From Thermosphaera aggregans (GTDB taxonomy: Archaea; Thermoproteota; Thermoprotei_A; Sulfolobales; Desulfurococcaceae), in contig NZ_CP063144.1 of the NCBI RefSeq assembly GCF_014962245.1, forward strand, positions 796,582-860,581: 64,000 bases of DNA, read 5' to 3'. Below the pieces are notes generated by a model. That model was not told the DNA's origin, searched no databases, and was given only the letters and a program-made list of their open reading frames with translations. The position numbers were made by a program, and so were the translations under genes. This document shows, piece after piece, positions 8,114-57,381 of the stretch; position 1 is the first letter of the stretch, and every line of letters starts with the position of its first letter.

Positions 8114-8851
8114 TCAAAAAACGTTTTTCCTCAAAAAATATGCTAGTTCGCGATCAACACTGTTTAAATGAGCCAGGTAAGCGTAAACAAACCCTATATT
8201 TTCTTTTAGAGCATCGAGCACCCCTATCTCCTTGGCTCTCTCTAGGATATGCTTTAGCAGATTTCTAAAGTCTTCGTGATCTTTGAAGTGTTGTTTAGCT
8301 CTAGGATACTTGTATTTTCTCATCAAGTCTTCTTCGAACTTTAGATGCTCTAAAACATCATTAATAAGGTTTTCGACAATCATTATCTCTCTTCCTACTC
8401 CTTTTATTAGTTCCTCGATTAATTCATTCCATTTACGAAGAATCCTCTCGTGCTGTGCATCAAGCGGTTCAAAACCGTAGATCATTTCATTTCCCCATTG
8501 GAAAAGGGGAGGCACTACTTTGATAAGAGTTATTTCAGAATCACCGATACTTCTACAAAACTCCTCAGGGTTGAAGGACGTGTTAGATTCTAACCCTCCG
8601 CACGCAATTCTCAACAGCTTCTTTCCCTCAGAAACAAGCATGCAACGTGTCTTTAACTTCTCGTTAAATATTTCAACGAAATAGTGGTCCTCAGGGTTTG
8701 CAGTACTTACCTTGTCTAGTATTCTGGATAGGTCTCCTCTAACCCTATCTACGATGGTTACTTCGCTAACATCTAAAAGTTTTTGAAGACTATGTATGTC
8801 ATTCCTAACACCATGGGTTACTATTCCTAAGCATTCTTTAAAAGCCCACAT
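8114..8851 (-). CDS. Hemerythrin-domain protein with an unassigned N-terminal domain
   Basis: A 245-residue protein. Residues 118-245 are a bacteriohemerythrin domain with all seven di-iron ligands in place: H134, H169, E173, H188, H192, H228 and D233, plus a W119 of the usual NxxW-like entrance region. It should bind oxygen reversibly and could store, sense or deliver it to the flavodiiron protein. Residues 1-115 form a separate alpha/beta domain I cannot assign; it contains cysteines at 7, 70, 84 and 99. There is no signal peptide or membrane segment. It sits at the end of the oxygen-defence island and faces the HD phosphohydrolase gene across a 135-base divergent region. Confidence 0.85.
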   Translation of the reverse strand: MWAFKECLGIVTHGVRNDIHSLQKLLDVSEVTIVDRVRGDLSRILDKVSTANPEDHYFVEIFNEKLKTRCMLVSEGKKLLRIACGGLESNTSFNPEEFCRSIGDSEITLIKVVPPLFQWGNEMIYGFEPLDAQHERILRKWNELIEELIKGVGREIMIVENLINDVLEHLKFEEDLMRKYKYPRAKQHFKDHEDFRNLLKHILERAKEIGVLDALKENIGFVYAYLAHLNSVDRELAYFLRKNVF

Positions 8852-8986
8852 ATAAGCACCTGGTGTGCTAAAATAGTTTTGTTTAAACTTTTAAATATTT
8901 TTAAACCATGTTTGAGGGTGTTAAATTTAAATATCTGATTTAATAAATACTACTGTGATCATTGATCATCGTAAAGGTTCGAAGCA
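8852..8986. promoter_or_regulatory. Divergent promoter region between the hemerythrin and HD-phosphohydrolase genes
   Basis: An A+T-rich stretch with several TATA-like runs (about 8880-8912 and 8925-8945). Just upstream of the hemerythrin start, reading the minus strand, is the palindrome CACCAGGTG. On the plus-strand side two TGATCA hexamers lie at 8956-8961 and 8963-8968. The TATA calls follow archaeal spacing rules and are not verified. Confidence 0.4.
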
Positions 8987-10636
8987 TTGGCTGAAACATA
9001 TATTCCAATATACGGGTATGATATTGGTGGCGGATTAGAAATGGAGTCTTCTCCATCCCCCTTCATACCGTTTAATGGTCAGATAAGAGACGTGTTATAC
9101 GGGTATATTGATTTTGTAAAAGGGTTCGAGGACAAGGTTATTGATTCCTGGGCGATGCAGAGGCTGAGATACATCTACCAGCTTCAGGCAGCCCACTTTA
9201 TCTATCCAAACGCAACCCACACAAGGTTTGCTCATTCAATAGGCGTAATGCACTCGTCTTTCAAATATATAACACACTTGCTTAGAACATCGTATCATCT
9301 ACCAGAGGAATGCACTTATAGAAAAGACATTATCGGGCATCAGAAAGAAATCATCTTCGCCGCTAGATTGCTGGGCTTGATGCATGACCTGGGGCACGGG
9401 CCATTCAGCCACGCATTCGACAAATACGTTTATAAAACCCGAGAGTTTCTTGGATACAGCGTGGGCAACCATGAAGTCGTTGGCTATCTCCTCTACAGGG
9501 ATTTTTTAAGGGAGAGAATATACGAGCAAGCCTTGGACTCTTCTAAAACACTCGGCCTAGACCCAGAGGTTCTCATATCTCTGCTTGACGAGGGCATGAA
9601 GCCTCCCAGGGGTATGAAGGATTTTACAGACCTTGTTAACCGGTCCCTCCTCTCAGATAAGGACTTTTACAACCCATCCTCTAACGACTTGAGCAGTATG
9701 GTTAGACTTGTTGTTAGGGATTATGCCTACACTAGCGATATCATGGATTATCTTAAAAGAGACAGCTTTTTCACAGGGGTTCCGGTAGGCGAGATCAACG
9801 ATGACTGGATCATTAGAAACACTTTCCTAGTGGAGAAAAACAACATGATTATTCCAGGAGTGACTCGAAAATCCTTGGACGAAATAGCCAGGCTTTTCGA
9901 TGCGAGAAAGATAATGTATAAGAATGTTTACCTCCACCCGGTGAACGTGGCGTTTATTGAGATGATCGGTTATCTCCTCCAATGCTTGAAATCAAGACTT
10001 GTTGAAATAATCGAGGAAATATTGCAGAAACCTGATAGCTTATCCAAGTATTTCCTCTTAACTGATCACTCCCTTTACAGCATGCTGGCCAACTTAATAT
10101 ATGAAGATGTTTCAACGTATGAGTGCGTCGATAAGGAATTAGCGAGGAAGGCGTTGCAAAGTCTTTTCATTGAGAGGAAACCCGTATGGAAGATGATAGG
10201 CAGGTTTAACTATAATTTAAAGTACGCTAAGCACTTATTCAGCGAGCGCTTCGGAGAGACTTATCAGAAAATGTTGAAGGAGAAGATTAGTGAAGAAATC
10301 TCCAGCGTGCTGAAAGATAGAAATGTCAACTCTTCTGATATCTTAACCATTATTGACAAGGTTGAAATATACCCGTCCTCCGGTTCCGAAGTTCTGGATA
10401 AAATACATGTCGTAGAGATCCGCGGTAGCAAGGTTATAGATGTAGAAGATTTAACATATGAGGAGTTTGCGCAACAGCATGGGCTTATTCCCGAGGTTTT
10501 ATTCACAATCTACGTCAACCGTGAGAAATACAAAGACCTATCAAGTAGTGATTTGAAGAAAGCCCAGGAGAGCGCTGAAGAAGTTATAAAAGAAGCCTTG
10601 TACGGCGGAGGAAGGGAGGCGCCTGAAACTAGTTAA
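8987..10636 (+). CDS. HD-domain phosphohydrolase, dGTPase-like (COG1078)
   Basis: A protein of up to 549 residues in the COG1078 HD superfamily. N-terminal segments match family hallmarks: IRDVLYGYIDF, the RLRYIYQLQ helix, THTRFAHSIGVMH, then the HD pair in LLGLMHDLGHGPFSHAFD. A later aspartate follows in DYAYTSDIMDYLKRDSFFTG. These supply the H...HD...D metal site. Relatives hydrolyse dNTPs or other nucleotides, but the substrate here is unknown. The first start is TTG 8987; ATG 9041 with GGTGG ten bases before it would give 531 residues and begin nearer the family start. It could be confused with MptB, also an HD protein, but size and motifs fit COG1078 better. Confidence 0.85.
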   Translation: MAETYIPIYGYDIGGGLEMESSPSPFIPFNGQIRDVLYGYIDFVKGFEDKVIDSWAMQRLRYIYQLQAAHFIYPNATHTRFAHSIGVMHSSFKYITHLLRTSYHLPEECTYRKDIIGHQKEIIFAARLLGLMHDLGHGPFSHAFDKYVYKTREFLGYSVGNHEVVGYLLYRDFLRERIYEQALDSSKTLGLDPEVLISLLDEGMKPPRGMKDFTDLVNRSLLSDKDFYNPSSNDLSSMVRLVVRDYAYTSDIMDYLKRDSFFTGVPVGEINDDWIIRNTFLVEKNNMIIPGVTRKSLDEIARLFDARKIMYKNVYLHPVNVAFIEMIGYLLQCLKSRLVEIIEEILQKPDSLSKYFLLTDHSLYSMLANLIYEDVSTYECVDKELARKALQSLFIERKPVWKMIGRFNYNLKYAKHLFSERFGETYQKMLKEKISEEISSVLKDRNVNSSDILTIIDKVEIYPSSGSEVLDKIHVVEIRGSKVIDVEDLTYEEFAQQHGLIPEVLFTIYVNREKYKDLSSSDLKKAQESAEEVIKEALYGGGREAPETS

Positions 10637-10676: not shown

Positions 10677-11189
10677 ATGATTGGGGTTAACATGCTTGAC
10701 TTGCAGAGCCTATTGGTAGTGTTCATTCTGGGATTCCTGCCCATTAGCGAGATAAGGGGCGCTATACCCTACGCCGTAATTAAAGCAGGAGAAGACGCTA
10801 ATCTAATGGGTTTTTACATTTTAGCAGGTGTCCTGGCAAACCTGCTCATAGCCCCGGTAGCGTTGAACATTCTCTCAACGGTTGAAAAAATAGTCATGAG
10901 TGAGAAATTTCCAAGGCTTCTTAGAAACATTTATCTCAAGATAGTGGAAAAAGCGTTGGAGAAAGCATCAAGGATGGAAAAGATCACCTTGTTATCCTTA
11001 GCATTGTTCGTCGGCATCCCCCTACCGGTGACTGGTGCGTGGACCGGGAGCCTGATAGCTTTTCTACTACGAGTTGATAAGAAAAAAGCCATGGTTGCAA
11101 TTAGTCTCGGAGTGCTGATAGCATCGCTAATAGTGTACTCGGCAGTTTACCTCGGAATATCCATATTGAAAACAATTTTCCTCCTTTAA
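10677..11189 (+). CDS. COG2426 small multidrug-export-like membrane protein
   Basis: A 170-residue integral membrane protein of the COG2426 (Sm_multidrug_ex) family. The signature near the start is LGFLPISEIRGAIPYAV, followed by a second hydrophobic helix, a basic cytosolic helix (KIVEKALEKASRME) and two further membrane spans. A second half-motif, FVGIPLPVTGAWTGSLIAFLL, is also typical. The family name suggests drug export but its substrate has not been established. GGAG lies eight bases before ATG 10677; ATG 10692 is an alternative. It follows the HD gene by 40 bases and may be co-transcribed. Confidence 0.83.
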   Translation: MIGVNMLDLQSLLVVFILGFLPISEIRGAIPYAVIKAGEDANLMGFYILAGVLANLLIAPVALNILSTVEKIVMSEKFPRLLRNIYLKIVEKALEKASRMEKITLLSLALFVGIPLPVTGAWTGSLIAFLLRVDKKKAMVAISLGVLIASLIVYSAVYLGISILKTIFLL

Positions 11190-11258
11190 CTCAAATCTTA
11201 TAGGGGGTGGCTTTTAAAATTCATTGTAGAGATTAAATCAAACATGTAAGGTGGTTAC

Positions 11259-12074
11259 ATGTCATACGCAAATATTGGTAAAACTGTAAGATTGAACAGA
11301 ATCCTCCGCGATGGGAAAGCAGTCGTGTTCGCATTCGACCACGGGTTCGAGCACGGCCCATGGGATTTCACCAGCGAAACAATAGACCCTAGGGGATTGT
11401 TAAAGAAAATAGTTGATGCAGGTGTTGACGCGGTGATGCTAACACCCGGGCTCGCTTATGTTACACGGGACTCCTGGCTGGGGAGGACGAGTCTGATCGT
11501 GAAAGTGACTGGTAAAACTAATTTGAGACCGGAGGACCAGAAGATGCTTCAAAGCCTAATAGGCACGGTGGAGGAAGCGGTCTCGCTTGGAGCCGATGCA
11601 GTGGCCGCCACTGTTTACTGGGGTAGCCAGTACGAGGACGTCATGCTTTCTCGATGGGTTTCAATAAAAGAGGAGGCTGAAAGGTACGGGTATCCTTGTT
11701 TACAGCTCGCGTACCCGAGAGGTCCCAGCATTAAGAACATGTACGATGTGGAAGTGGTCAAGTACGGTGTGAGAGCAGCCATTGAGGTTGGGGCGGATCT
11801 GATAAAGACGTACTACACTGGTAGCTGGGATACTTTTAGAGAAGTGGTGAAGGCCTCTTCAGGGATACCTGTTTTAATGAGCGGTGGAGCCCCTAGGAAG
11901 AGCTTCATGGATTTCCTGAGGGATGTTGAAGACGTGATGAAGGCAGGTGCTCAAGGAGTGGTTGTAGGGAGAAACGTATTCATGCATGAAAACCCAGCGT
12001 TAGCGATAAGAGCGGTCATGAAGATTGTTCACGAAGGTTTAACCGCTGAAGAGGCTTTTAAAACCATGCAGTAA
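11259..12074 (+). CDS. Class I fructose-1,6-bisphosphate aldolase, archaeal DhnA type
   Basis: A 271-residue TIM-barrel aldolase of the archaeal class I (DhnA) family. FAFDHGFEHGP near residues 24-34 and the Schiff-base lysine in GADLIKTYYTG near residue 179 are diagnostic. It also has the SGGAPRKS phosphate-binding segment and VVVGRNVF at the C terminus. It interconverts fructose 1,6-bisphosphate with glyceraldehyde-3-phosphate and dihydroxyacetone phosphate. The next gene, a PfkB kinase, starts 14 bases downstream, so the pair probably links sugar phosphorylation to cleavage. Related 2-amino-3,7-dideoxy-heptulosonate synthases share the fold but usually sit with aromatic amino-acid genes, which are absent here. 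Confidence 0.85.
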   Translation: MSYANIGKTVRLNRILRDGKAVVFAFDHGFEHGPWDFTSETIDPRGLLKKIVDAGVDAVMLTPGLAYVTRDSWLGRTSLIVKVTGKTNLRPEDQKMLQSLIGTVEEAVSLGADAVAATVYWGSQYEDVMLSRWVSIKEEAERYGYPCLQLAYPRGPSIKNMYDVEVVKYGVRAAIEVGADLIKTYYTGSWDTFREVVKASSGIPVLMSGGAPRKSFMDFLRDVEDVMKAGAQGVVVGRNVFMHENPALAIRAVMKIVHEGLTAEEAFKTMQ

Positions 12075-12088
12075 CCGGTGGGTCAGGA

Positions 12089-13012
12089 ATGTCAAGCGAT
12101 ATAGATGTTGTCACGGTAGGACACGCTCTTGTTGACATAAGGATTCTAGTAGAGACCTTTCCAGGAATAGATCAGGAGAGCAAAGTTCTCGAACAATCAT
12201 GGGGGAGCGGCGGATCAGCTGTAAACGTTGCCATAGGGGTAAGAAGGCTAGGTTTGAAATCAAGCATCTTGGCGAAAATAGGTTTCGACAGTTTCGGTAG
12301 AATAATAGTCGACGATCTCTTGAAAGAGGGCGTGGATATAAGTGGTTTGAGGATAAGCCTGGGGCAAACAGGGTTTACCATAGTCGCTATTAACAAGAAC
12401 GGAGACATCACGATGTACGGGTTCAAAGGAGCTGCTGAAACGCTGGAGCCTTCAGACCTTAGTGAATATGCGATTTCAAGGGCTAAGTGGATTCACATTA
12501 CAAGCCTTAGACTGGATACGACTATTGAAGCCCTCAGGATTGCTGAGAAATACGGGTTGAAATCCTCGTGGGATCCTGGAAGAGTGCTAGCGTCACAGGG
12601 CTTGGAGAAAGTGAAGCCAGTCGTGTCCAGGGTTAACGTTGTCTTCCTAAACCATAAAGAAGCAACTTTATTGACGGGTATGGAGGATTACAAGCAGGCG
12701 GCTAAGGAGATAGCTTCAACCGGACCAGAAGTAGTGATCGTGAAGAGGGGTGGGAAAGGAGTATATGTCTACAGTAGGGACTTGGAGGAGGAGATCCCGG
12801 CTTACAGAGTTGACAACGTGATCGATACCACGGGGGCTGGAGACGCTTTTGCATCAGGCTTTATAACAGGCTTCCTGAGAGGATACAATTTGAGAAAATC
12901 TCTTCAATACGGTAATGCCGTGGCCGCGTTGAAAATCTCAAGCCTTGGATCCCACTGTGTGCCAACCCATGACGAAGTTGTAAAGTTCATATGGGAGAGA
13001 GAAGGAATTTAA
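12089..13012 (+). CDS. PfkB-family carbohydrate kinase (possible ATP-phosphofructokinase or ribokinase)
   Basis: A 307-residue PfkB/ribokinase-family kinase. The N-terminal GSGGSAVNVAIGVRRLG and the C-terminal DTTGAGDAFASGF are the two family signatures; the aspartate in GAGD is the catalytic base. Substrates in this family range from fructose-6-phosphate to ribose and nucleosides. Being directly behind the fructose-bisphosphate aldolase gene favours phosphofructokinase, as reported for PfkB-type enzymes of Aeropyrum and Desulfurococcus, but the sequence alone does not decide. A kinase of this type would make glycolysis run through ATP rather than the ADP-dependent enzymes of Thermococcales. 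Confidence 0.85.
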   Translation: MSSDIDVVTVGHALVDIRILVETFPGIDQESKVLEQSWGSGGSAVNVAIGVRRLGLKSSILAKIGFDSFGRIIVDDLLKEGVDISGLRISLGQTGFTIVAINKNGDITMYGFKGAAETLEPSDLSEYAISRAKWIHITSLRLDTTIEALRIAEKYGLKSSWDPGRVLASQGLEKVKPVVSRVNVVFLNHKEATLLTGMEDYKQAAKEIASTGPEVVIVKRGGKGVYVYSRDLEEEIPAYRVDNVIDTTGAGDAFASGFITGFLRGYNLRKSLQYGNAVAALKISSLGSHCVPTHDEVVKFIWEREGI

Positions 13013-45682: not shown

Positions 45683-47236
45683 ATGCCTTTTTTAATAGCC
45701 CTTGATGTTGGGACAAGCTCTGTAAAATCAATACTATTAGATGTTGAGAAAGCATTAGTAATCGGGAGGCATACAGAGTCGTTGAGAGTGTTATATCCCA
45801 GGAATGGTTGGGCCGAGCAGTCGCCTGATGAGATCTGGGAATCTATTGTTTCATCCATTAAAAATTTGCTTGAGGAAGCGGAGATTAACCGAGATGAAGT
45901 GAAAGGGATAAGCATTGATGCGCAAATGCTGGGAGTTGTTCCTGTTTCAAGAGACGGTGAAGCATTACATAATTTTCTAACATGGCTTGATACGCGAGGT
46001 GCTGGGGAACCATGGGAGCTTTTCACAGGCGTTTTCAAAATAAGCGGTTACAATCTATTGAAGCTTATAAAATACTTGAGGATAACTGGTGGGGCTCCGA
46101 GCAGAACCGGGAAAGACCCTATTTCTAAAATAGTTTGGTTTAGAAAGAACATGCCCGAACTTTACGAGAAGACTTGGAAGTTTCTTAACTATAACGGGTT
46201 CGTTGCTTTGAAATTAACCGGGAAGCCATCAATTAACGCTGACGAGGCTAATGTGACCTGGCTTGCAGATGTGAGGAGAGGTAAACTGGACTGGAGCGTA
46301 ACGATTTTGAAGGATTTAAAAATATCGTCGGAGAAACTCCCTCCTATTAGAGCGCCAACCGAGATAGTGGGGGGATTGAAGCCTGACGTTGCCGGGGAGC
46401 TCGGGTTATCTGAAAGTGTAAAAGTAGTTATTGGATCTGGGGATGTTGCAGCCACAGCCATAGGTTCAGGAGGCATAGGCGATCTTGAGACGCATTTATA
46501 CTTGGGGACAAGTGATTGGCTCGCTTCACACTTACCGAGGAGAAGGCTCGACATATTCCACGCTATAGGTACGATAATCAGCGCGATCCCGGGTAAGCAT
46601 TTATTGATCGCTGAGCAGGAGTGTGGTTGCTCAGTCCTAGACTACATCGTGACTCTTCTCTATGGGAAAGCGGATAAACAAGTGTTTGATGAAGTAGATA
46701 GAAACATCGGGTCTGTTGACCCTGCTTCAAACAAAATCCTATTCCTCCCATGGATGTTTGGAGAAAGAGTACCGATAGACGACCCCTATGTAAGAGGAGT
46801 GCTATACAATGTAAGCTTGAGCGATTCAAGGTTTCAAATACTAGAGGCAATAATGGAGGGTGTTGCATTGAACATTAAGTGGGCTCAAATATATTTCGAG
46901 AAGCTGCTCGGCGAGAGGATTCGAGTCTTAAATGCAGTGGGAGGCGGGGCCTTATGGGATTCTCTATGCCAATTAATAGCTGACGCCACGGGTGCAGAGG
47001 TGTGGAGGATGAGTACTTTGAGAGAAGCCTCGGCTATTGGAGCTGCTGTAATAGGGGTTAAAGCACTGGGTCTTGGAGAGTTTGAATATGTTAAGAAGAT
47101 CGCTAAACCCGAGAAAGTGTTTAAACCTAGGGAACCGTTAATCAGAGTGTTCAATGAAAAGCTTAAGCTCATGATAAACGTGTATAAGGCGAACAAAAGA
47201 TTTTTCAAACAGTTGAATACTGCATGCTCAGTTTAA
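45683..47236 (+). CDS. FGGY-family carbohydrate kinase (xylulokinase-like)
   Basis: A 517-residue FGGY kinase. The N-terminal phosphate motif is IALDVGTSSVKSILLDV; NGWAEQSPDEIWE and TWLDTRGAGEPWEL near residue 95 place a catalytic aspartate; the C-terminal family signature is NAVGGGALWDSLCQLIADATGAEV near 412-435. Relatives phosphorylate xylulose, ribulose, fuculose, glycerol or erythritol. It converges on a class II aldolase gene with 23 bases between the stops. Kinase plus class II aldolase suggests breakdown of a ketose through its 1-phosphate, but the pair is on opposite strands. The substrate is undetermined. Confidence 0.87.
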   Translation: MPFLIALDVGTSSVKSILLDVEKALVIGRHTESLRVLYPRNGWAEQSPDEIWESIVSSIKNLLEEAEINRDEVKGISIDAQMLGVVPVSRDGEALHNFLTWLDTRGAGEPWELFTGVFKISGYNLLKLIKYLRITGGAPSRTGKDPISKIVWFRKNMPELYEKTWKFLNYNGFVALKLTGKPSINADEANVTWLADVRRGKLDWSVTILKDLKISSEKLPPIRAPTEIVGGLKPDVAGELGLSESVKVVIGSGDVAATAIGSGGIGDLETHLYLGTSDWLASHLPRRRLDIFHAIGTIISAIPGKHLLIAEQECGCSVLDYIVTLLYGKADKQVFDEVDRNIGSVDPASNKILFLPWMFGERVPIDDPYVRGVLYNVSLSDSRFQILEAIMEGVALNIKWAQIYFEKLLGERIRVLNAVGGGALWDSLCQLIADATGAEVWRMSTLREASAIGAAVIGVKALGLGEFEYVKKIAKPEKVFKPREPLIRVFNEKLKLMINVYKANKRFFKQLNTACSV

Positions 47237-47259: not shown

Positions 47260-47904
47260 TCACTTTGTAATACCCATTCTCCTCTGGAATAATGCCTGCT
47301 GGAATTTCACTATTTCCTCGGGTAGAGTTGTCACCTTTCCTAGAATCCTAGCTAGAACGTAGATCTGGGCAACCCTCTCCACCACGGTTAAAACCTCGAC
47401 CGCCTCCTCTAGTTTTCTCCCGCAAGCTACTACCCCGTGGTTAGCAAGTATGGCCGCGCTTCTCTCTTTCAACGCTTTCACTACGTTTTCAGCAAGCTCT
47501 TCGCTTCCGAATGGAGCGTATTCAGCGACCCTGACCTCTCCACCAGTGTACATGATCATTTCCTCTATAACAGGGGGTAGCGGCTCCCTTGCTACTGCCA
47601 GCACGCTCGTGTACAGGCCGTGGGCATGTATGATAGCCCCTATGTAGGGGTACTCACGGTATATTGCAAGATGCATTGGCATTTCCACTGTTGGAGCTCG
47701 AGCCCCTTCTAATACTTCACCATCCATTGAAACTAGGAGAATGTCCTCAGGGGTCATTTCGGATTTAACTACCCCGCTAGGAGTTATTAGTAAACGATCT
47801 GCTCCTATCCTGACGCTGACATTTCCCGATCTCCCGTGGTTAAGACCTTTATCATCCAAATACTTCATTACCTCAACTATTTTCTTTTTCAAATCCTCGT
47901 GCAA
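47260..47904 (-). CDS. Class II aldolase/adducin-family protein (fuculose-1-phosphate aldolase-like)
   Basis: A 214-residue zinc aldolase of the FucA/AraD/MtnB family. Zinc ligands are H93 and H95 in IIHAHGLYTS and H156 in LANHGVVACG; the catalytic glutamate position is E74 in TVEMPMHLAIY. GLNHGRSGNVSVRIG and LLITPSGVVKSEMTPEDI are typical N-terminal segments. Members cleave fuculose- or rhamnulose-1-phosphate, epimerise ribulose-5-phosphate, or dehydrate methylthioribulose-1-phosphate (MtnB). Archaeal members also make lactaldehyde. The gene is divergent from an HTH regulator with a palindrome between them. Confidence 0.85.
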   Translation of the reverse strand: MHEDLKKKIVEVMKYLDDKGLNHGRSGNVSVRIGADRLLITPSGVVKSEMTPEDILLVSMDGEVLEGARAPTVEMPMHLAIYREYPYIGAIIHAHGLYTSVLAVAREPLPPVIEEMIMYTGGEVRVAEYAPFGSEELAENVVKALKERSAAILANHGVVACGRKLEEAVEVLTVVERVAQIYVLARILGKVTTLPEEIVKFQQALFQRRMGITK

Positions 47905-50236: not shown

Positions 50237-51241
50237 TTGCACGAGCTTAGGTGGAATCCTCTAATACGGCAGTGGATTATTGTCGCGGCTCATCGTGCCG
50301 TTAGGCCGTGGAGGCTTACTGATAAGGAAAGAGTCTCATGCCCGTTTTGCCCAGGCGCTCCCGAGCTCAAGGATTTGGCTTCATGGGATGTTGTGGTCTT
50401 GCCGAACAAATACCCTGCTCTCGTACCCCATCCGGGAAGTCCAGCTCAATATGGATCTCCCCTATATGTCTCCAGGGAAGCTAGGGGCGTCTCAGAAGTC
50501 ATAGTTGAGACACCGATGCATGAGGGGGATTTTCACACCTTGACGCTTTCGCATGTTTCGAAGGTGATGAAAGTGTTCAAGGAGGAGTTTGAAAAGCTTT
50601 CACGTCTCGAATATATTGAATACGTAGCCTTATTTCGTAATAAAGGAAGGGAGATAGGTGTTTCGCTCTCGCATCCTCATTCTCAAGTTTACGCTCTCCC
50701 TTTCATACCTCCTCGAGTAGCAAGCGAATTAGAGTCTTTCAAGGAATATTATGGAAAGCATGGAAGGTGCTTGATCTGCGATGTTGTAAGCCATGAGCAA
50801 GCGGTTAGGGAGAGGACGGTTTACGAGAACGAAGGGTTCATGATAATCCTGCCCTACTATGCTATGTGGCCTTACGAGCTACATGTATATCCTAAGAAGC
50901 ATGTTAAAGCAATAAGCGAGCTTTCCGAAGAGGATTTAAAACTATTAGCCGATGCTATTCGAGTTGCAACCGCTACGTATTCAAGATTGCTCAAGAAGGA
51001 TGCTCCCTACATTATGGTAATGCATAATCACCCTTCAAAAGGAGACTACCATTACCACTTCCACATAGAGTTTTACCAGCCCTACAGGGATCCTGAAAAG
51101 CTAAAGTACGCTGCAGGTATAGAGTGGGGGTATTGGGTCTTCACCTACGATGGTGTCCCGGAGGAAAGGGTTAAAGAGTTGCGCAAAGCCTGTGATGAAA
51201 TCCTGGAGGTCATTGGTGATACCTTTGGAAAATGTGCGTGA
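50237..51241 (+). CDS. galT: Galactose-1-phosphate uridylyltransferase
   Basis: A 334-residue HIT-superfamily GalT. The active-site H-P-H motif occurs in SHPHSQVYALPF near residue 140, with Ser in place of the usual Gly before Gln. Zinc-type pairs CPFC and CLIC are near residues 34 and 176, and NHPSKGDYHYHFHIEFYQP near 258-276 holds the second histidine cluster. It exchanges UMP between UDP-glucose and galactose-1-phosphate. TTG 50237 is the start. The galactokinase gene begins inside its last 26 bases, giving a coupled galT-galK pair of the Leloir pathway. Confidence 0.92.
   Translation: MHELRWNPLIRQWIIVAAHRAVRPWRLTDKERVSCPFCPGAPELKDLASWDVVVLPNKYPALVPHPGSPAQYGSPLYVSREARGVSEVIVETPMHEGDFHTLTLSHVSKVMKVFKEEFEKLSRLEYIEYVALFRNKGREIGVSLSHPHSQVYALPFIPPRVASELESFKEYYGKHGRCLICDVVSHEQAVRERTVYENEGFMIILPYYAMWPYELHVYPKKHVKAISELSEEDLKLLADAIRVATATYSRLLKKDAPYIMVMHNHPSKGDYHYHFHIEFYQPYRDPEKLKYAAGIEWGYWVFTYDGVPEERVKELRKACDEILEVIGDTFGKCA
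51205..51210 (+). promoter_or_regulatory. Ribosome-binding site fixing the galK GTG start
   Basis: GGAGGT within the galT coding end lies five bases before GTG 51216, and identifies that codon as the galactokinase start rather than the ATG further upstream at 51150. Confidence 0.8.
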
Positions 51242-52508
51242 AATCGTTGACTTCATATTTAGAAGACATGAAGGCCTTTACGGTGAAAAGCCCAAAGTTA
51301 TTGCTTCAGCCCCTGGAAGGCTGGATTTTTTAAACACTCACCAGGACTATAAAGGATTGCCCGTTGTATCTGTCGCTATAAATAAGAGAACTTATGTTGC
51401 TCTTTCGACTTCGAAAACCAGGTCGAAGGCTGTTTCGATCAATCTGTGTGATGAAGGGGTTGAGTGCGCAGACACGTTCAGCGCTAATAATCCTACACTT
51501 GTAGAGGAGGGCTGGTTTGGCGATTATATCAGGTCGGCTGTGAAAGCTCTTCGGATGAAGGGATACCTGATCGATGATTTCAACCTCACTATTTACAGTG
51601 AGATCCCTATAGGTTCGGGTTTAGCTAGCAGTGCAGCACTTCAAGTCTCATTAGTTGCAGGCCTTAACGCTTTGTTCAGGCTTGGCTTAGAGAGGAAGGA
51701 TATTGCCGAGATAGCATACCAGAGTGAGCACGATGTTATGGGTATTCCGTGCGGGAGGCTGGATCAATATGGTTCAGCCATGGGCGGAGTAACCTTGATT
51801 GAAACCAAACCTCCTTTCACCACTAAGACTCTTGTGAGAAAAGACATACTGTTCACAGTGCTTGATTCAGGCATAAGGCATTCCACAGGTAGCATCCATC
51901 CTGTGAGAATAAGTGAGCTGAAGCAAGGAGTCAGGGAGCTCCTGCTTCTCGATGACCTACCTGGAGATTTGAGAAACATGCTTAAGGAGGACATCTACGC
52001 TTTGGAGTGGGGTAGGCTAGACTACCAACGCATCGAGCCTTATCTCCACCGGATTAATAAGGTTTCCATGAAAAGAATAGTATTCACGTTTAAAATGCAT
52101 TATTCAACAATACTGGCTTTAAGACTCCTCGAAGACTCATCAAGTATTGATACAAGGGAAGAAGTGGAAGCGTTTTTACGGTCAGAGTGCGATGAGTGCT
52201 TAAGTAAAACCGGTTTGGAGGCAAACAGCTTTCTCAGACTCTTAGGCGGCTTAGTAAACTATCAGCACGTTCTACTACGCGATTTGTACGATGTCAGTCT
52301 ACCACGTTTGGAATTGATAAGAAGCAAGGCTCTTGAAGCAGGGTCTTACGGGGTGAAAATCTCTGGGGCTGGCTTAGGCGGATCCTTATTGGGATTAGTA
52401 GGCTCGGAAGAGCAAGCTATCAAAGTATTGAAACATACGAGTGGGTTGGTGAGGAGCGCGTGGATTGTTAGCGTGGATGAAGGGGTTAGAGTAGAGTTGG
52501 AACCATAA
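51216..52508 (+). CDS. galK: Galactokinase (GHMP family)
   Basis: A 430-residue GHMP kinase. The galactokinase signature is present in altered form as PGRLDFLNTHQDYKGLPVV, where GEHTDY reads NTHQDY. The ATP loop is PIGSGLASSAALQVS near residue 128 and the third GHMP motif is KISGAGLGGSLLGLV near 385. CGRLDQYGSAMGG supplies the catalytic aspartate. The substrate call rests on the overlap with galT; a related sugar-1-kinase cannot be excluded by sequence. The GTG start is fixed by GGAGGT five bases upstream. Product galactose-1-phosphate would feed GalT and the GalE-type epimerase at 61409. Confidence 0.87.
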   Translation: MIPLENVREIVDFIFRRHEGLYGEKPKVIASAPGRLDFLNTHQDYKGLPVVSVAINKRTYVALSTSKTRSKAVSINLCDEGVECADTFSANNPTLVEEGWFGDYIRSAVKALRMKGYLIDDFNLTIYSEIPIGSGLASSAALQVSLVAGLNALFRLGLERKDIAEIAYQSEHDVMGIPCGRLDQYGSAMGGVTLIETKPPFTTKTLVRKDILFTVLDSGIRHSTGSIHPVRISELKQGVRELLLLDDLPGDLRNMLKEDIYALEWGRLDYQRIEPYLHRINKVSMKRIVFTFKMHYSTILALRLLEDSSSIDTREEVEAFLRSECDECLSKTGLEANSFLRLLGGLVNYQHVLLRDLYDVSLPRLELIRSKALEAGSYGVKISGAGLGGSLLGLVGSEEQAIKVLKHTSGLVRSAWIVSVDEGVRVELEP

Positions 52509-52564
52509 AAAACAACCAGATTTAAGGACATATTTTCAGGCATTCTTAACCGCGCAAAACCACT

Positions 52565-53932
52565 TCACTGTTCCTTCTTAACAGATTCCAGTGACCTCTC
52601 CCTTTCCCTCAACAGACGCCTTAATTTCTCCTTATCTCTTAAATACGTTCTAAACGCAGGTAGCCATAGGAGAGCGCATGGCACCCAGAACAAGCTGATG
52701 GTTATTAATCCTAGCTTCATGTTCGAGGGCTCCTGGAAACCCCATGCTAGGAACATGACCATGAAGAAGCTTGCTATTGTCGGCCCGAAGGCTGAACCTA
52801 TATTATCTGTTATATTGAATATTCCGAATATGGTTCCACGATGCTCCGGTAGCGAGATCTCGCTTAGGACTGCCGGTACGTTCGGTGCTGCGAAGGTTAC
52901 GAAAACCATTCCCATTAGACTTATAAGTAGAACAGGTATTAGTGCCGGTAAAGACTCGTCTCCATACGGGTATGGGTAGGTTAGCAACATTATCATGGTG
53001 AAAGTTCCTATCAAAATGCCCACGAAAGGTATGAGCAACCTGGCCTTCGCAAAACCCTTCCTCTGCAGAATATCTGAAAGCATTCCCCCTATGAAGTATC
53101 CTATCATCATGCCTAACCCCGCAACAAAAACTATCATTGTAGCGGTAGCTTCTGAGAGTCCCCAGGTTTTCTGGAAGAATGTTGGAGCCCAGTAAGGTAT
53201 GGCTCCCCATGGGAAGGTCCCGGGTACTCCTTGGAGATATATAAAAATGAGAGTAGGTGTTGCTGCAAGGGCTGTTGCAAACTCTCTCAGGTTAATCCTA
53301 AACTTGTATTCAATACCCATGTCATAGAGTTTCTTAATCTCTGGCTCGGCGTACCCTATCTTTACCTCCTTAATCACGAGTAGGAATAAGGGTACTAGAA
53401 CAAAATTTGGCGCTGCTGCAAGCATGAAAGGTATTCTCCATGATAAGCCAGTGGTCAACACTATTGCTGCAAGCATCATGCCAAGTAGAACCCCGAAGCC
53501 TGAGCCGAAATTGTAGAGAGCATATCCCTTACCCCTCTCCTCGGGAGGGTAGAGGTCGGCTATTAATGCTCTAGCCACCGGCGCCGCCCCATTAATCCCT
53601 ACCCCGGTCAGCGCTCTCAGTAACAGCATTTGATAATAGTTTTGTGAAAACGCTGTTAGGAAGCATGGGATTTCGCCTGTTAGAACCGCTGCAGCGAACA
53701 AGATTCTTCTACTGAGCTTGTCAGCTAAGTACCCCCATATAAACGTGGTTGCAATGCCGGATAAGACAGGGACGGTTGCAAGTAATCCTGCATAGTAATA
53801 CCAATCCTGCTCCCCACCGATAATGATACCCTCTTCTCTCAGAGTTATTACCATGGGTGCAACAAGATTCTGATCCGCGTATAGCATCATGAGCATCAAT
53901 ATGAAGAATATGAGAACCAGTCTCCTCGTCAT
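52565..53932 (-). CDS. Major facilitator superfamily transporter (possible sugar or organic acid carrier)
   Basis: A 455-residue MFS transporter with twelve predicted membrane segments. The loop 2-3 motif is GYLADKLSRRILFAAAV near residue 68-84; LLLRALTGVGINGAAPVARALIADLYPPEERGKG around 108-141 contains the R-x-x-x-G-x-G-x3 and PxxERG motifs of the superfamily (seen as ALTGVGINGA and PPEERGKGYA). The C-terminal tail is long and basic. It stands between the galactose genes and the GH1 glycosidase, convergent with galK, so uptake of a sugar or glycoside is plausible; no family hallmark proves it. Confidence 0.87.
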   Translation of the reverse strand: MTRRLVLIFFILMLMMLYADQNLVAPMVITLREEGIIIGGEQDWYYYAGLLATVPVLSGIATTFIWGYLADKLSRRILFAAAVLTGEIPCFLTAFSQNYYQMLLLRALTGVGINGAAPVARALIADLYPPEERGKGYALYNFGSGFGVLLGMMLAAIVLTTGLSWRIPFMLAAAPNFVLVPLFLLVIKEVKIGYAEPEIKKLYDMGIEYKFRINLREFATALAATPTLIFIYLQGVPGTFPWGAIPYWAPTFFQKTWGLSEATATMIVFVAGLGMMIGYFIGGMLSDILQRKGFAKARLLIPFVGILIGTFTMIMLLTYPYPYGDESLPALIPVLLISLMGMVFVTFAAPNVPAVLSEISLPEHRGTIFGIFNITDNIGSAFGPTIASFFMVMFLAWGFQEPSNMKLGLITISLFWVPCALLWLPAFRTYLRDKEKLRRLLRERERSLESVKKEQ

Positions 53933-53991
53933 TTAAACCCCCATGGTCAAACATGATTTTCTAACAGCCTACACATATCTTATTCACGCAG

Positions 53992-54003
53992 ATTATATAT
54001 AAT
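53992..54003 (-). promoter_or_regulatory. TATA-like palindrome upstream of the MFS gene
   Basis: ATTATATATAAT, a perfect A/T palindrome, lies about 60 bases upstream of the MFS start on the minus strand and is the best TATA candidate in this gap. The 174-base gap holds no gene that I can recognise. Confidence 0.45.
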
Positions 54004-54106
54004 TCTTAACTGACAAAGCACTAGGATTGCCCACGAATGCTAAAACCCTTGAAGATGGGCTTAATACGGAGGTAAACAGTTTAACGTTCTAGGTCATACG
54101 GTGATT

Positions 54107-55555
54107 TCACATAAAAAATAGTTCTTCAGGGATTTCCCTACGTAAACTAATTTCCCTAAACAATAAGGCACTAGGTCTTAGAAACCTTTTCTTAGTGTCG
54201 AAATCAACCTTTACCAGGCCAAACCTCATGTTGAAGCCCATGGCCCATTCATAATTATCTATTAGTGACCAGTGCAGATATCCTCTCACATCCACGCCTT
54301 TTTCCACTGCTTTCAATGTGCTGGCGAGATGAGTGATAAGGTAGGAGGAGCGGTGCTTATCCATGGAATCAGCTATCCCGTTTTCAGTTACGATTAAAGG
54401 AATCCTGTATTTGTTGAACAGCTCTACAAGGATGTTCTCCAACCCTTCTGGATATATTTCCCATCCGAACTCGCTACACGGTCTATCCGCCTTGCTCACC
54501 CCACCAGGCGTGCATATGAATCCATACCCAGGAATATACCTCCATCCCGGACCTTTTTTCTCGCCGGCCACCACCATTCTAGTGTAGTAGTTTACTCCTA
54601 TCCAGTCTAGTTTTCTCCTCAAGCTCTCCGATGCTGCTAAAAGGCTTTCGCCATGAATCAAAGTGTCCGTGAAAGCGTAGTTGTACATGTATGAGGCAGT
54701 GGAAGCAGCCTTCACGTCTTCACTATTCACGGGATTGAGGGGTTCAAACCACATGAAGTTGTAGATGATGCCCACAGGCTTCTTAGTGACTTGTTTGATC
54801 AAGTCATACGCTCTTGCATGCGCTATTGCCTGGTTTCTAAGAGCACGTATAGTGTATTCGAAGCTTGGGATTCCTGGCGGGAATCCTGATTTAGTGTTTA
54901 AGTATCCCGCTGTTGCAACCGCGTTGGGTTCGTTAAGAGTGCTCCACGCATCAGCATACTCTTCCAGCTCGCTCACGATATAATAAGCATATTTCGCGAA
55001 CTCCACTACTGTCTCATCGCTAAGCCACCCCGATGGCGCTGACTCAACTCCACGGGTTCTCACTTGTATTGGCTCATGTATCCATGATGGGAGAGTGAAG
55101 TGGTTGAGGTTTATGATAAGCTTTTTCCCCCTTGAAACCCAGTCTTTAAGCAATCCCTTGTATTTCTCAACCTGGTTCTTATCCGCCTTCTCTCTCAGTT
55201 GGTTGATAGCTGCTTCACTAATATCGATGCTTACTATAACTCCCTCCTCGTCCTTGTCGATATTAACGGGGATTTCCCTGGTTGGTCTAGGGAAAACCCT
55301 GCTCCATTCAATCCCGATGCGTAGAGTGTCTGCACCTAGTCTCTCTGCGATGTCATGGTCTTTCTTGTAAAGTGCCAAATATCCTGGGCCATTCTCGGGT
55401 AAATGCCCGCTTACTAACCCAGACATTATATTGTCCTGGTCGTGAACCCATATCCACCAGTCTGTATTAGGGTCTTCGAATCCTGGATATCCCATTTCGA
55501 ATTGAAAACCGGACTCGCTAAACCCGATGATAAACCCGCTGGGGAATTTAAGCAT
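54107..55555 (-). CDS. GH1 beta-glycosidase (LacS/Thermosphaera beta-glycosidase type)
   Basis: A 482-residue family 1 glycoside hydrolase closely resembling the tetrameric Sulfolobus LacS and Thermosphaera aggregans enzymes. FQFEMGYPGFEDPNTDWWIWVHD starts the barrel (quoted as FEDPNTDWWIW). The acid/base glutamate is in WSTLNEPNAVA near 208, the nucleophile in IVTENGIADS near 389, and YLHWSLIDNYEWAMGFNMRFGLV is the C-terminal signature (as WSLIDNYEWAMGF). It has no signal peptide, so it acts on imported glucosides or galactosides. It follows a small DUF6379-like gene by 39 bases on the same strand, and lies near galK, galT and an MFS carrier. Confidence 0.96.
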   Translation of the reverse strand: MLKFPSGFIIGFSESGFQFEMGYPGFEDPNTDWWIWVHDQDNIMSGLVSGHLPENGPGYLALYKKDHDIAERLGADTLRIGIEWSRVFPRPTREIPVNIDKDEEGVIVSIDISEAAINQLREKADKNQVEKYKGLLKDWVSRGKKLIINLNHFTLPSWIHEPIQVRTRGVESAPSGWLSDETVVEFAKYAYYIVSELEEYADAWSTLNEPNAVATAGYLNTKSGFPPGIPSFEYTIRALRNQAIAHARAYDLIKQVTKKPVGIIYNFMWFEPLNPVNSEDVKAASTASYMYNYAFTDTLIHGESLLAASESLRRKLDWIGVNYYTRMVVAGEKKGPGWRYIPGYGFICTPGGVSKADRPCSEFGWEIYPEGLENILVELFNKYRIPLIVTENGIADSMDKHRSSYLITHLASTLKAVEKGVDVRGYLHWSLIDNYEWAMGFNMRFGLVKVDFDTKKRFLRPSALLFREISLRREIPEELFFM

Positions 55556-55594: not shown

Positions 55595-55957
55595 TCAGCT
55601 CACAACGTCTTTAATATCGAATTTGATTGGACCATACTCCTTGCTTACCGCGGATATTACGATTTTATGCTCGCCTGGTTCGAGCCTGATTCCTTCAATC
55701 CTTATTGTTACAAGAGTGTTCAGTGCGAAGTCCACAGGGTTTGTGTCTGAAATATCTTTGTTCAGTATTGTTTTAGAATCCGACTCCAGCGTTATTTTGT
55801 CGAGGGGAACCGGTTTGTCGTCAATGGTGATTTCAAGAGGTTTAGACAAACTAGCATCTGCTAAGACGTTTTTAAGGGAAAACTGAAAACCTGTTTCATT
55901 ATTCTTCAAGCTTTTCTTAACGTATAATCTTCTGAGAATGATGGCTGGAACCGACAT
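55595..55957 (-). CDS. Small beta-rich protein resembling DUF6379 (C-glycoside deglycosidase beta subunit)
   Basis: A 120-residue protein, no signal peptide. Its layout follows the DUF6379 pattern: a short lead, SLKNNETGFQFSLKNVL with the GFQF motif, a strand pair ITIDDKPVPLDKITLES, a middle helix-poor stretch, then LEPGEHKIVISAVSKEYGPIKFDI at the end (motif PGEH followed by alternate hydrophobic residues). DUF6379 proteins are the small subunits of bacterial C-glycoside deglycosidases, partnered by a xylose-isomerase-like subunit that is not seen here. The gene precedes the GH1 glycosidase on the same strand, so it probably works on the same substrate or enzyme. The family link is by eye and needs a profile search. 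Confidence 0.55.
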   Translation of the reverse strand: MSVPAIILRRLYVKKSLKNNETGFQFSLKNVLADASLSKPLEITIDDKPVPLDKITLESDSKTILNKDISDTNPVDFALNTLVTIRIEGIRLEPGEHKIVISAVSKEYGPIKFDIKDVVS

Positions 55958-56052: not shown

Positions 56053-57381
56053 ATGTTCTTGAAACCCATGAGAATAGATTACGAGGATATTCTAGACGTG
56101 CTGTATGAAACCATAGATATCGATAAGTACATTATAGCCCACTACATAATTGAAGCACCCGTGGGCTTTCCGCCTGACATGATTGCAAGGGCTTTCGCAG
56201 CTGAGCAGACCACTGGAACCTGGATACGAACACCTGCAGAGACTGTGGAGATGAGGAAGAATCTAGGCGGGAAGGTCGTAGGATTATACGAGATTCCCGA
56301 CTATGAAACGGAGACTCCGAAGGAAGGTTATAGGAGATTCTTGGTTTCAATCGCGTTTCCATGGGTTAATTTTGAGAATGACTTATCCACAATGTTCTCC
56401 GCTGTTACCGGCAACATAATGGCTTTCGGCAGGATAAAGCTAGTTGATGTTTGGATGCCTCCCGCATACATTAAACTTTTCAAGGGTCCGAAATACGGGA
56501 TAGAAGGATTGAGGACACTTATGCGGGTTCACGATAGGCCTTTAATAGTTGCCATGGTTAAACCATGCGTATACTATCCCGCGGATGTCGGTGCTAAGCT
56601 GGCTTACGAAGCATGGGTAGGAGGCGTGGACGTTATAAAAGATGACGAGCTACTCGCAAACCAGAGTTTCAACAAGGTGGAGGAGAGGGTTGTAAAATTC
56701 ATGGAAATGCTTGAAAGGGCTGAGCAGGAAACAGGTGAGAAAAAACTCTACACTGTAAACATCACGAGTGACCCGCCTAAGCTTTTCGAGCTTGCTGAGA
56801 AAGTAAAACAGTTGGGTGGAAACGCTTTAATGGTGAACGCCTACTCCGTTGGGCTTGGGGCTTTCAAAAACCTGGCCGAGGATCCAAGCGTAAACATGCC
56901 AATACTTGCGCACACTCCCGACTATGTCGCAATGTCGTACGTTTCACCTTACTCCGGAATATCATCAATCTTAGTAGCTGGTAAACTCATCAGAATCGCT
57001 GGAGCAGACATGGTGATATATCCAGGACCATATGGTAAAGTACCGACCTTCACTAAGGAGAAATACCTCCGTGTTGCAAAGTATCTGAGGGCCCCGATGA
57101 GCGGGTTGAAACAGACACTGCCCTGTCCATCCGGAGGAAACACTCAGCTGGAGGTTCCTAAGCTGGTAGGGGATTTAGGCGTGGATATTGGAATAGCCGC
57201 CGGTGGAGCGATACATGCGCACCCATGGGGGAGTAAGGCTGGAGCTAAATCGATGAGGCAAGCCATCGATGCTGTTCTGAAAGGTATTCCCCTTGAAGAA
57301 TACGCTAAAGAAGCTCCAGAGCTGAATGCGGCGATAGAAGCGTATAAGAAAGGAGCTTTGGCGATAATGTTAGGATTGTAA
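56053..57381 (+). CDS. RuBisCO-like protein (form IV type), not a canonical RuBisCO
   Basis: A 442-residue RuBisCO large-chain homologue. Retained positions (spinach numbering) appear to be E51 (E60), T56-W57 (T65-W66), N121 (N123), K170 (K175), K196-D198-E199 of the KDDE metal site (K201, D203, E204), H287 (H294), K329 in loop 6 (K334) and S360 (S379). Changed are C172 for K177, T288 for R295, and loss of H327. Loop 6 reads YPGPYGKVPTF and the segment around GLGAFKNLAEDPSVNMPILAH resembles MtnW-type enolases, not form III. It probably enolises or isomerises a phosphorylated ketose. It is divergent from the DUF6379/GH1 unit. Substrate unknown. Confidence 0.85.
   Translation: MFLKPMRIDYEDILDVLYETIDIDKYIIAHYIIEAPVGFPPDMIARAFAAEQTTGTWIRTPAETVEMRKNLGGKVVGLYEIPDYETETPKEGYRRFLVSIAFPWVNFENDLSTMFSAVTGNIMAFGRIKLVDVWMPPAYIKLFKGPKYGIEGLRTLMRVHDRPLIVAMVKPCVYYPADVGAKLAYEAWVGGVDVIKDDELLANQSFNKVEERVVKFMEMLERAEQETGEKKLYTVNITSDPPKLFELAEKVKQLGGNALMVNAYSVGLGAFKNLAEDPSVNMPILAHTPDYVAMSYVSPYSGISSILVAGKLIRIAGADMVIYPGPYGKVPTFTKEKYLRVAKYLRAPMSGLKQTLPCPSGGNTQLEVPKLVGDLGVDIGIAAGGAIHAHPWGSKAGAKSMRQAIDAVLKGIPLEEYAKEAPELNAAIEAYKKGALAIMLGL

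Follow-up and report, generated by a model that had tools for sequence, protein, structure and literature searches.

A RuBisCO-like protein of the AF1587-type clade in Thermosphaera aggregans: active site and gene neighbourhood suggest a pathway for a singly phosphorylated, sugar-like compound

In RuBisCO structures the 1-phosphate of the substrate is bound by T65, W66, G381, G403 and G404 (P1 site) and the 5-phosphate by R295 and H327 (P2 or distal site). To our knowledge, the function of AF1587, which was among the first RuBisCO-like proteins (RLPs) to be sequenced, is still unknown. We take AF1587 to be the Archaeoglobus RLP encoded 44 kb from the form III gene, and that gene to be AF1638 (A. 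fulgidus DSM 4304); its clade is presumably the one named form IV-AfRLP after Tabita et al. 2007/2008. Functions are known for MtnW, the Rhodospirillum rubrum isomerase and the D-apiose RLPs (PMC6302742), and RLPs outside the known functions are of unknown function (PMC7325909). Our search of the open-access literature found no publication that connects RLPs with FGGY kinases, an absence that is not proof of novelty, and nothing relevant on RuBisCO with saccharopine dehydrogenase or on AF1587.

The window analysed here is a stretch of 64,000 nucleotides of the genome of T. aggregans, a thermophilic archaeon. It encodes an RLP and several genes whose relatives recur next to RLPs elsewhere:

45683-47236, + strand: FGGY carbohydrate kinase, 517 aa, under every NCBIfam cut-off
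47260-47904, - strand: class II aldolase (fuculose-/ribulose-1-phosphate type), 214 aa
47976-48722, + strand: winged-helix (HrcA-type DNA-binding) and CBS regulator, 248 aa, from a Pfam scan of the homologue in locus L113
48788-50185, + strand: class III PLP aminotransferase/racemase-like enzyme AT3a, 465 aa
55595-55957, - strand: CGDbeta-like protein (predicted fold of a C-glycoside deglycosidase beta subunit), 120 aa, divergent from the RLP gene
56053-57381, + strand: RLP, form IV, AF1587-type clade by sequence, 442 aa

The RLP gene is intact (ATG start, 442 codons, 0 internal stops), and Pfam recognises both RuBisCO domains in its product (RuBisCO_large, E=5e-51; RuBisCO_large_N, E=4e-11). 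The protein stays under all curated NCBIfam cut-offs of the RuBisCO superfamily. Its best score is with the MtnW model NF007095 (322 bits, cut-off 409); the form III model TIGR03326 gives 283 bits (cut-off 497), the MtnW model TIGR03332 274 bits (cut-off 514) and the OiaX model NF042437 186 bits (cut-off 700). Its AlphaFold2 model has a mean pLDDT of 91.3, and its top PDB match in Foldseek is 2oem, the DK-MTP-1-P enolase (MtnW) of Geobacillus with 2,3-diketohexane-1-phosphate bound; the TM-score, when normalised by the target, is 0.92. The genome of the host, a single contig of 1,305,106 bp, contains exactly one other RuBisCO_large gene. This second copy (L001/L120) is 34% identical to the RLP and is of the canonical form III type, with K177, R295, H298 and H327 all present.

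In a maximum likelihood tree of 71 proteins, which has no row for the R. rubrum RLP and in which the placement of two long rows (L111, L112) is unsure, the window RLP and AF1587 (52% identical) stand together on a core branch of 35 rows with a support of 100/99. The nearest characterised group is MtnW (joint clade 99/98), forms I-III are set off by a branch with a support of 100/99, and the IV-Photo and OiaX-type RLPs are grouped on a branch of their own, apart from the family; the window RLP does not group with the IV-Photo RLP of C. tepidum (1ykw). The preliminary description of this DNA had judged the sequence around the GLGAFKNLAED segment to be closer to MtnW than to archaeal form III and had proposed a tree with forms I-IV, including AF1587, MtnW, OiaX and the Rhodospirillum RLP, as the check; the tree agrees and puts the protein in form IV. 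Judged by its sequence, the window RLP is thus a form IV protein of the AF1587-type clade and an already listed kind of RLP. The tree position outside forms I-III, the loss of K177, R295, H298 and H327, and the form III model score given above argue against form III identity.

A scan of genome collections yielded 80 named loci with 42-63% identity. Their archaeal hosts are Desulfurococcales, Bathyarchaeota and related archaea, Archaeoglobus and several Asgard phyla; bacterial hosts are Chloroflexota, Actinomycetota, relatives of Desulfobacterota, and Bacillota including Eubacterium barkeri. Genome searches within the host's own family added relatives of 86, 80 and 71% identity, and a full-length RLP is present in 5 of its 40 genomes. 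No relative was encoded on the viral contigs searched. One genome (G044) carries a truncated RLP of the same clade (L116, 8436-9059, - strand; 207 aa, 49% identical, restricted to the N-terminal part) adjoining an ABC transporter of the SBP_bac_5 type, a transporter type also found beside the RLP of L033; the L116 locus is a decayed copy of the RLP locus in a relative. More distant proteins were also seen. A divergent RLP in the host's phylum (L119, 9524-10807, - strand; 41%) has Leu at position 295, Pro at 177 and Ser at G381 and adjoins a four-carbon acid sugar kinase of the DUF1537 type (8116-9516, - strand). A sister lineage (L118, 9333-10646, + strand) has kept K177 and lost R295; an FGGY kinase follows directly downstream (10683-12215, + strand), and a homologue of aldehyde ferredoxin oxidoreductase is encoded close by. 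In Thiodictyon, the IV-Photo RLP (L130, 3480-5215, + strand) lies beside idi and yjbQ in a plasmid-borne photosynthesis gene cluster.

Active-site residues were compared in MAFFT alignments with RuBisCO forms I, II and III, MtnW, IV-Photo and OiaX-type RLPs. The metal site of the window RLP is kept (K201-D203-E204 correspond to K196-D198-E199), as are K175 (K170), H294 (H287), K334 (K329) and S379 (S360) and the equivalents of E60, N123, T65 and W66. Replaced are K177 (C172), R295 (T288), H298 (V292) and H327 (I322), and loop 6 (residues 324-333) reads PGPYGKVPTF. The residues first read from the sequence as intact (the KDDE metal site, K175, K334, H294, S379) or changed (Cys for K177, Thr for R295, H327 lost) and the loop 6 sequence are therefore as stated, with the exchange of H298 for Val in addition. 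The clade signature, KPC or KPD at K175-K177, KDDE, an Asp after H294 and GK in loop 6, is found in the protein. Across 44 family members, E60, T65, W66, N123, K175, K201, D203, E204, H294, K334 and the P1 glycines G381, G403 and G404 are invariant or nearly so, and S379 is mostly kept. Of the 44 sequences, 40 have Cys and 4 have Asp at position 172, so the change of K177 is not due to chance. At the position of R295 we find Met, Ser, Thr, Leu, Pro or Ala, at that of H298 Ala, Val, Gly or Ser, and at that of H327 Val or Ile. Adjoining the R295 position, all 35 core family members carry Asp290, whereas form III has Ala or Thr and MtnW has Ala here.

These features recur in AF1587, which shares KDDE, K175, K334, H294 and the invariant Asp with the window RLP and has likewise lost R295 and H327; it differs in that its residue 177 is Asp and not Cys and in keeping an N-N pair where the window subclade has V-A before KPC. 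The rebuilt active site claimed in the preliminary description is thus real, but it is a property of the clade and not of this protein alone. The rest of the family also has N-N, and the substrate of the window subclade may, as far as this exchange indicates, differ from that of the other members; the subclade and its nearest relatives also share one extra residue after H294. The archaeal form III enzymes (host copy and AF1638) have the same fold and metal site and share K175, N123, H294 and K334, but, unlike the window RLP, keep K177, R295, H298 and H327. MtnW of Bacillus and Geobacillus resembles the window RLP in lacking R295, H298 and H327 while keeping a one-phosphate site; in contrast to the family, E60 and K334 are missing, and a Lys (K98) stands where the family has Asn. 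We take K98 to be the catalytic lysine of MtnW, and because it aligns with Asn the window RLP is not an MtnW-type enolase in detail.

By these residues the P2 site is replaced and the P1 site kept, which makes a singly phosphorylated substrate the better prediction. The earlier expectation of a new phosphorylated substrate, drawn from changed phosphate-binding residues, applies to P2; with P1 intact, the residue pattern suggests a substrate that carries one phosphate.

For the gene neighbourhoods, open reading frames up to 9 kb from 83 family RLPs were clustered. An FGGY kinase is near the RLP in 47 of the 83 loci; in the commonest arrangement its gene immediately precedes that of the RLP and has the same orientation. 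The other recurrent neighbours are a class III PLP enzyme (26 loci), a saccharopine-dehydrogenase-like enzyme (SacDH; 16 loci), a class II aldolase (9 loci), a CGDbeta-like protein (7 loci) and the winged-helix-CBS regulator (4 loci, all in Desulfurococcales). In the host's family, an FGGY kinase (E<=1e-60) is found in exactly the five of 40 genomes with a full-length RLP, and a sixth genome, G044, with its 207-aa RLP fragment, has none at this threshold. Close AT3a orthologues (73-83% identical, or the window's own) are present in four of these five genomes, and AT3a fragments in one incomplete MAG of the family without a detected RLP; CGDbeta occurs in the same four and in no other of the 40. 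The fifth (G441) has SacDH in place of AT3, in the order SacDH-FGGY-RLP. Unbroken gene runs are AT3a-FGGY-RLP-CGDbeta-MFS, tightly packed, in L061 and SacDH-FGGY-RLP in L181. Co-occurrence strongly supports the link between RLP and FGGY kinase and moderately supports that with the class II aldolase. Both associations had been suggested for the window beforehand, together with one to the neighbouring glycosidase, which did not hold. In the two closest relatives the gene order is CGDbeta< RLP> FGGY> aldolase< regulator> AT3>, with no glycosidase, whereas in the window the module genes do not all lie together: between AT3 and CGDbeta stand galT, galK, an MFS transporter and the beta-galactosidase BgaS. 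Since the closest relatives hold the module together without BgaS, we regard the RLP-adjacent glycosidase as incidental and reject the link: BgaS adjoins the RLP only in the window. The inserted genes (50237-55555: galT, galK, MFS transporter, BgaS-type beta-galactosidase) form a galactoside-use cluster, found at this place in the host genome only among the genomes compared.

The association is not universal. AF1587 has a SacDH-like gene as neighbour, in place of AT3, CGDbeta and FGGY in the window; in most Archaeoglobus genomes the FGGY kinase does not adjoin the RLP, and a similar kinase is present in RLP-free relatives. Most Lokiarchaeota and the clostridial PF09370-linked members are without the FGGY/amine-enzyme neighbourhood. 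Most RLP loci of Lokiarchaeota (L057-L081) show instead neighbours of 370 and 713 aa without Pfam matches and no FGGY kinase. In the clostridial loci L082, L086, L087, L089 and L095 the RLP lies beside PF09370 (PEP-hydrolase-like) proteins, in many cases accompanied by a UPF0261 protein; this is a different pathway context from that of the FGGY/amine-enzyme loci. Autoinducer-2 catabolism, considered for clostridial loci with an FGGY kinase (LsrK) and a SorC regulator, looks unlikely: the kinases reach 170 and 220 of 528 bits with the AI-2 kinase model, and the SorC protein fits DeoR better than LsrR.

The class III PLP enzyme and SacDH never occur together in the 83 loci (Fisher p=0.001, a value not corrected for relatedness), and about eight exchanges between them are placed on the RLP tree, seven of which are forced by starred branches. 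The two may therefore be alternative routes to an equivalent amine step. This equivalence is uncertain because the PLP enzymes comprise two subfamilies, resembling racemases/aminotransferases and glutamate-1-semialdehyde aminomutase respectively, which need not share a reaction with each other or with SacDH; exclusivity with SacDH is true of both.

The CGDbeta-like gene was found only with the racemase/aminotransferase-like subfamily (7 of 12) and directly follows the RLP gene in L033 and L061. The model of the 120-aa protein (pLDDT 84) has the predicted fold of the C-glycoside deglycosidase beta subunits DgpB, DfgB and CarB2; at E<=0.001, 17 of 17 Foldseek matches are C-glycoside deglycosidases. 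By sequence, no match of this kind exceeds its curated cut-off (PF19906, 24.5 bits, cut-off 27.6). Among the neighbours scanned, no deglycosidase alpha subunit was recognised. Pfam labels 55595-55957 'HMG-CoA reductase N-terminal domain' (PF25653), a name that may mislead given the predicted fold. We know of no partner subunit of the CGDbeta type described for a RuBisCO-fold enzyme.

Taken together, our preferred reading, to which we give a probability of about 0.58, is that the RLP is an Mg2+-dependent and probably carbamate-dependent enolase or isomerase, acting on a singly phosphorylated, sugar-like keto compound in an uncharacterised pathway. Upstream, the FGGY kinase would supply the phosphate, and the amine would be handled by the PLP enzyme or, in other lineages, by the SacDH-like enzyme. 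The phosphate of the substrate would be held in the P1 site by T56, W57, G362, G384 and G385, and carbamylated K196 together with D198 and E199 would hold Mg2+ against a carbonyl/hydroxyl pair. The alpha proton could then be taken by the K196 carbamate or by H287, and the resulting enediolate could be stabilised and reprotonated by K170 and K329, giving isomerisation. The phosphate-free end would lie against the invariant Asp290, a possible ligand for hydroxyls or an amine. Downstream, the product is perhaps cleaved by the class II aldolase.

The same RLP chemistry might serve a biosynthetic instead of a catabolic module, whose product would be a phosphorylated amino sugar or polyol destined for a lipid, a cofactor or a modified nucleotide. 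Aminotransferases and SacDH-like enzymes are reversible, and the Archaeoglobus RLP-SacDH pair is flanked by radical SAM and RNA-related genes; we hold this unlikely, as the patchy, accessory spread (5 of 40 family genomes) and the transporters or regulators in several RLP loci better fit catabolism. Somewhat unlikelier still is a more specific proposal, that the RLP has a CGDbeta-like partner subunit and, as its substrate, an amino sugar or amino polyol in phosphorylated form, within a widespread anaerobic pathway whose steps would be a kinase, one of three interchangeable amine enzymes, enolisation or isomerisation by the RLP, and aldol cleavage.

An RLP of the OiaX kind (3-oxo-isoapionate-4-phosphate decarboxylase), that is, a decarboxylase or transcarboxylase-type enzyme for a phosphorylated keto acid, is improbable. 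Such RLPs, like those linked to DUF1537, also have a dedicated kinase next door, there for a sugar acid, and a kinase is the constant neighbour here too; the class II aldolase homologue of L084 moreover scores best, below cut-off, against 3-oxo-tetronate-4-phosphate decarboxylase. OiaX-type RLPs are, however, a separate and fully supported clade paired with DUF1537 and not FGGY kinases, they differ in loop 6 and in P1 residues, OiaX has Gly and Phe where the window RLP family keeps N123 and W66, and the window protein falls far below the OiaX cut-off.

We give still less weight to a true carboxylase, in effect a RuBisCO with another acceptor, adding CO2 to the enediolate of a ketose that carries one phosphate. 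The carboxylation residues E60, N123, K175, K201-D203-E204, H294 and K334 are all kept, but K177, R295, H298 and H327 are not, the protein is placed in form IV away from forms I-III, and the host genome already has its canonical form III RuBisCO. No more probable is a 5-methylthioribulose-1-phosphate 1,3-isomerase as in R. rubrum, where MTA is salvaged without oxygen: a singly phosphorylated ketose as substrate, anaerobic hosts and a class II aldolase in some loci would suit it, yet the conserved partners are the FGGY kinase and the amine enzymes and not MtnP, MtnA or a cupin. That the protein is a 2,3-diketo-5-methylthiopentyl-1-phosphate enolase of methionine salvage is scarcely credible: tree and fold both put MtnW nearest among the characterised families, and it provides the top NCBIfam score, but both MtnW cut-offs are missed, the catalytic Lys98 of MtnW aligns with Asn121 of the family, MtnW Gly, Met and Ser positions are Glu, Cys and Lys here, the gene neighbours differ, and the acireductone dioxygenase of methionine salvage (PF03079) is absent from all nine RLP-bearing genomes (0/9), which excludes the known oxygen-dependent pathway, and we reject this role.

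The RLP module suggests a pathway, as yet undescribed, for a sugar-like compound with one phosphate and possibly an amine, and it gives concrete enzymes to assay jointly, namely the FGGY kinase, the interchangeable PLP enzyme or amine dehydrogenase and sometimes the CGDbeta-like protein. For AF1587-type RLPs it offers a prediction at the level of residues, one phosphate in the substrate and Asp290 at its far end. It also bears on the chemical kinship of RuBisCO and isomerases in Asgard and other archaea, Chloroflexota, Actinomycetota, relatives of Desulfobacterota, and Bacillota.
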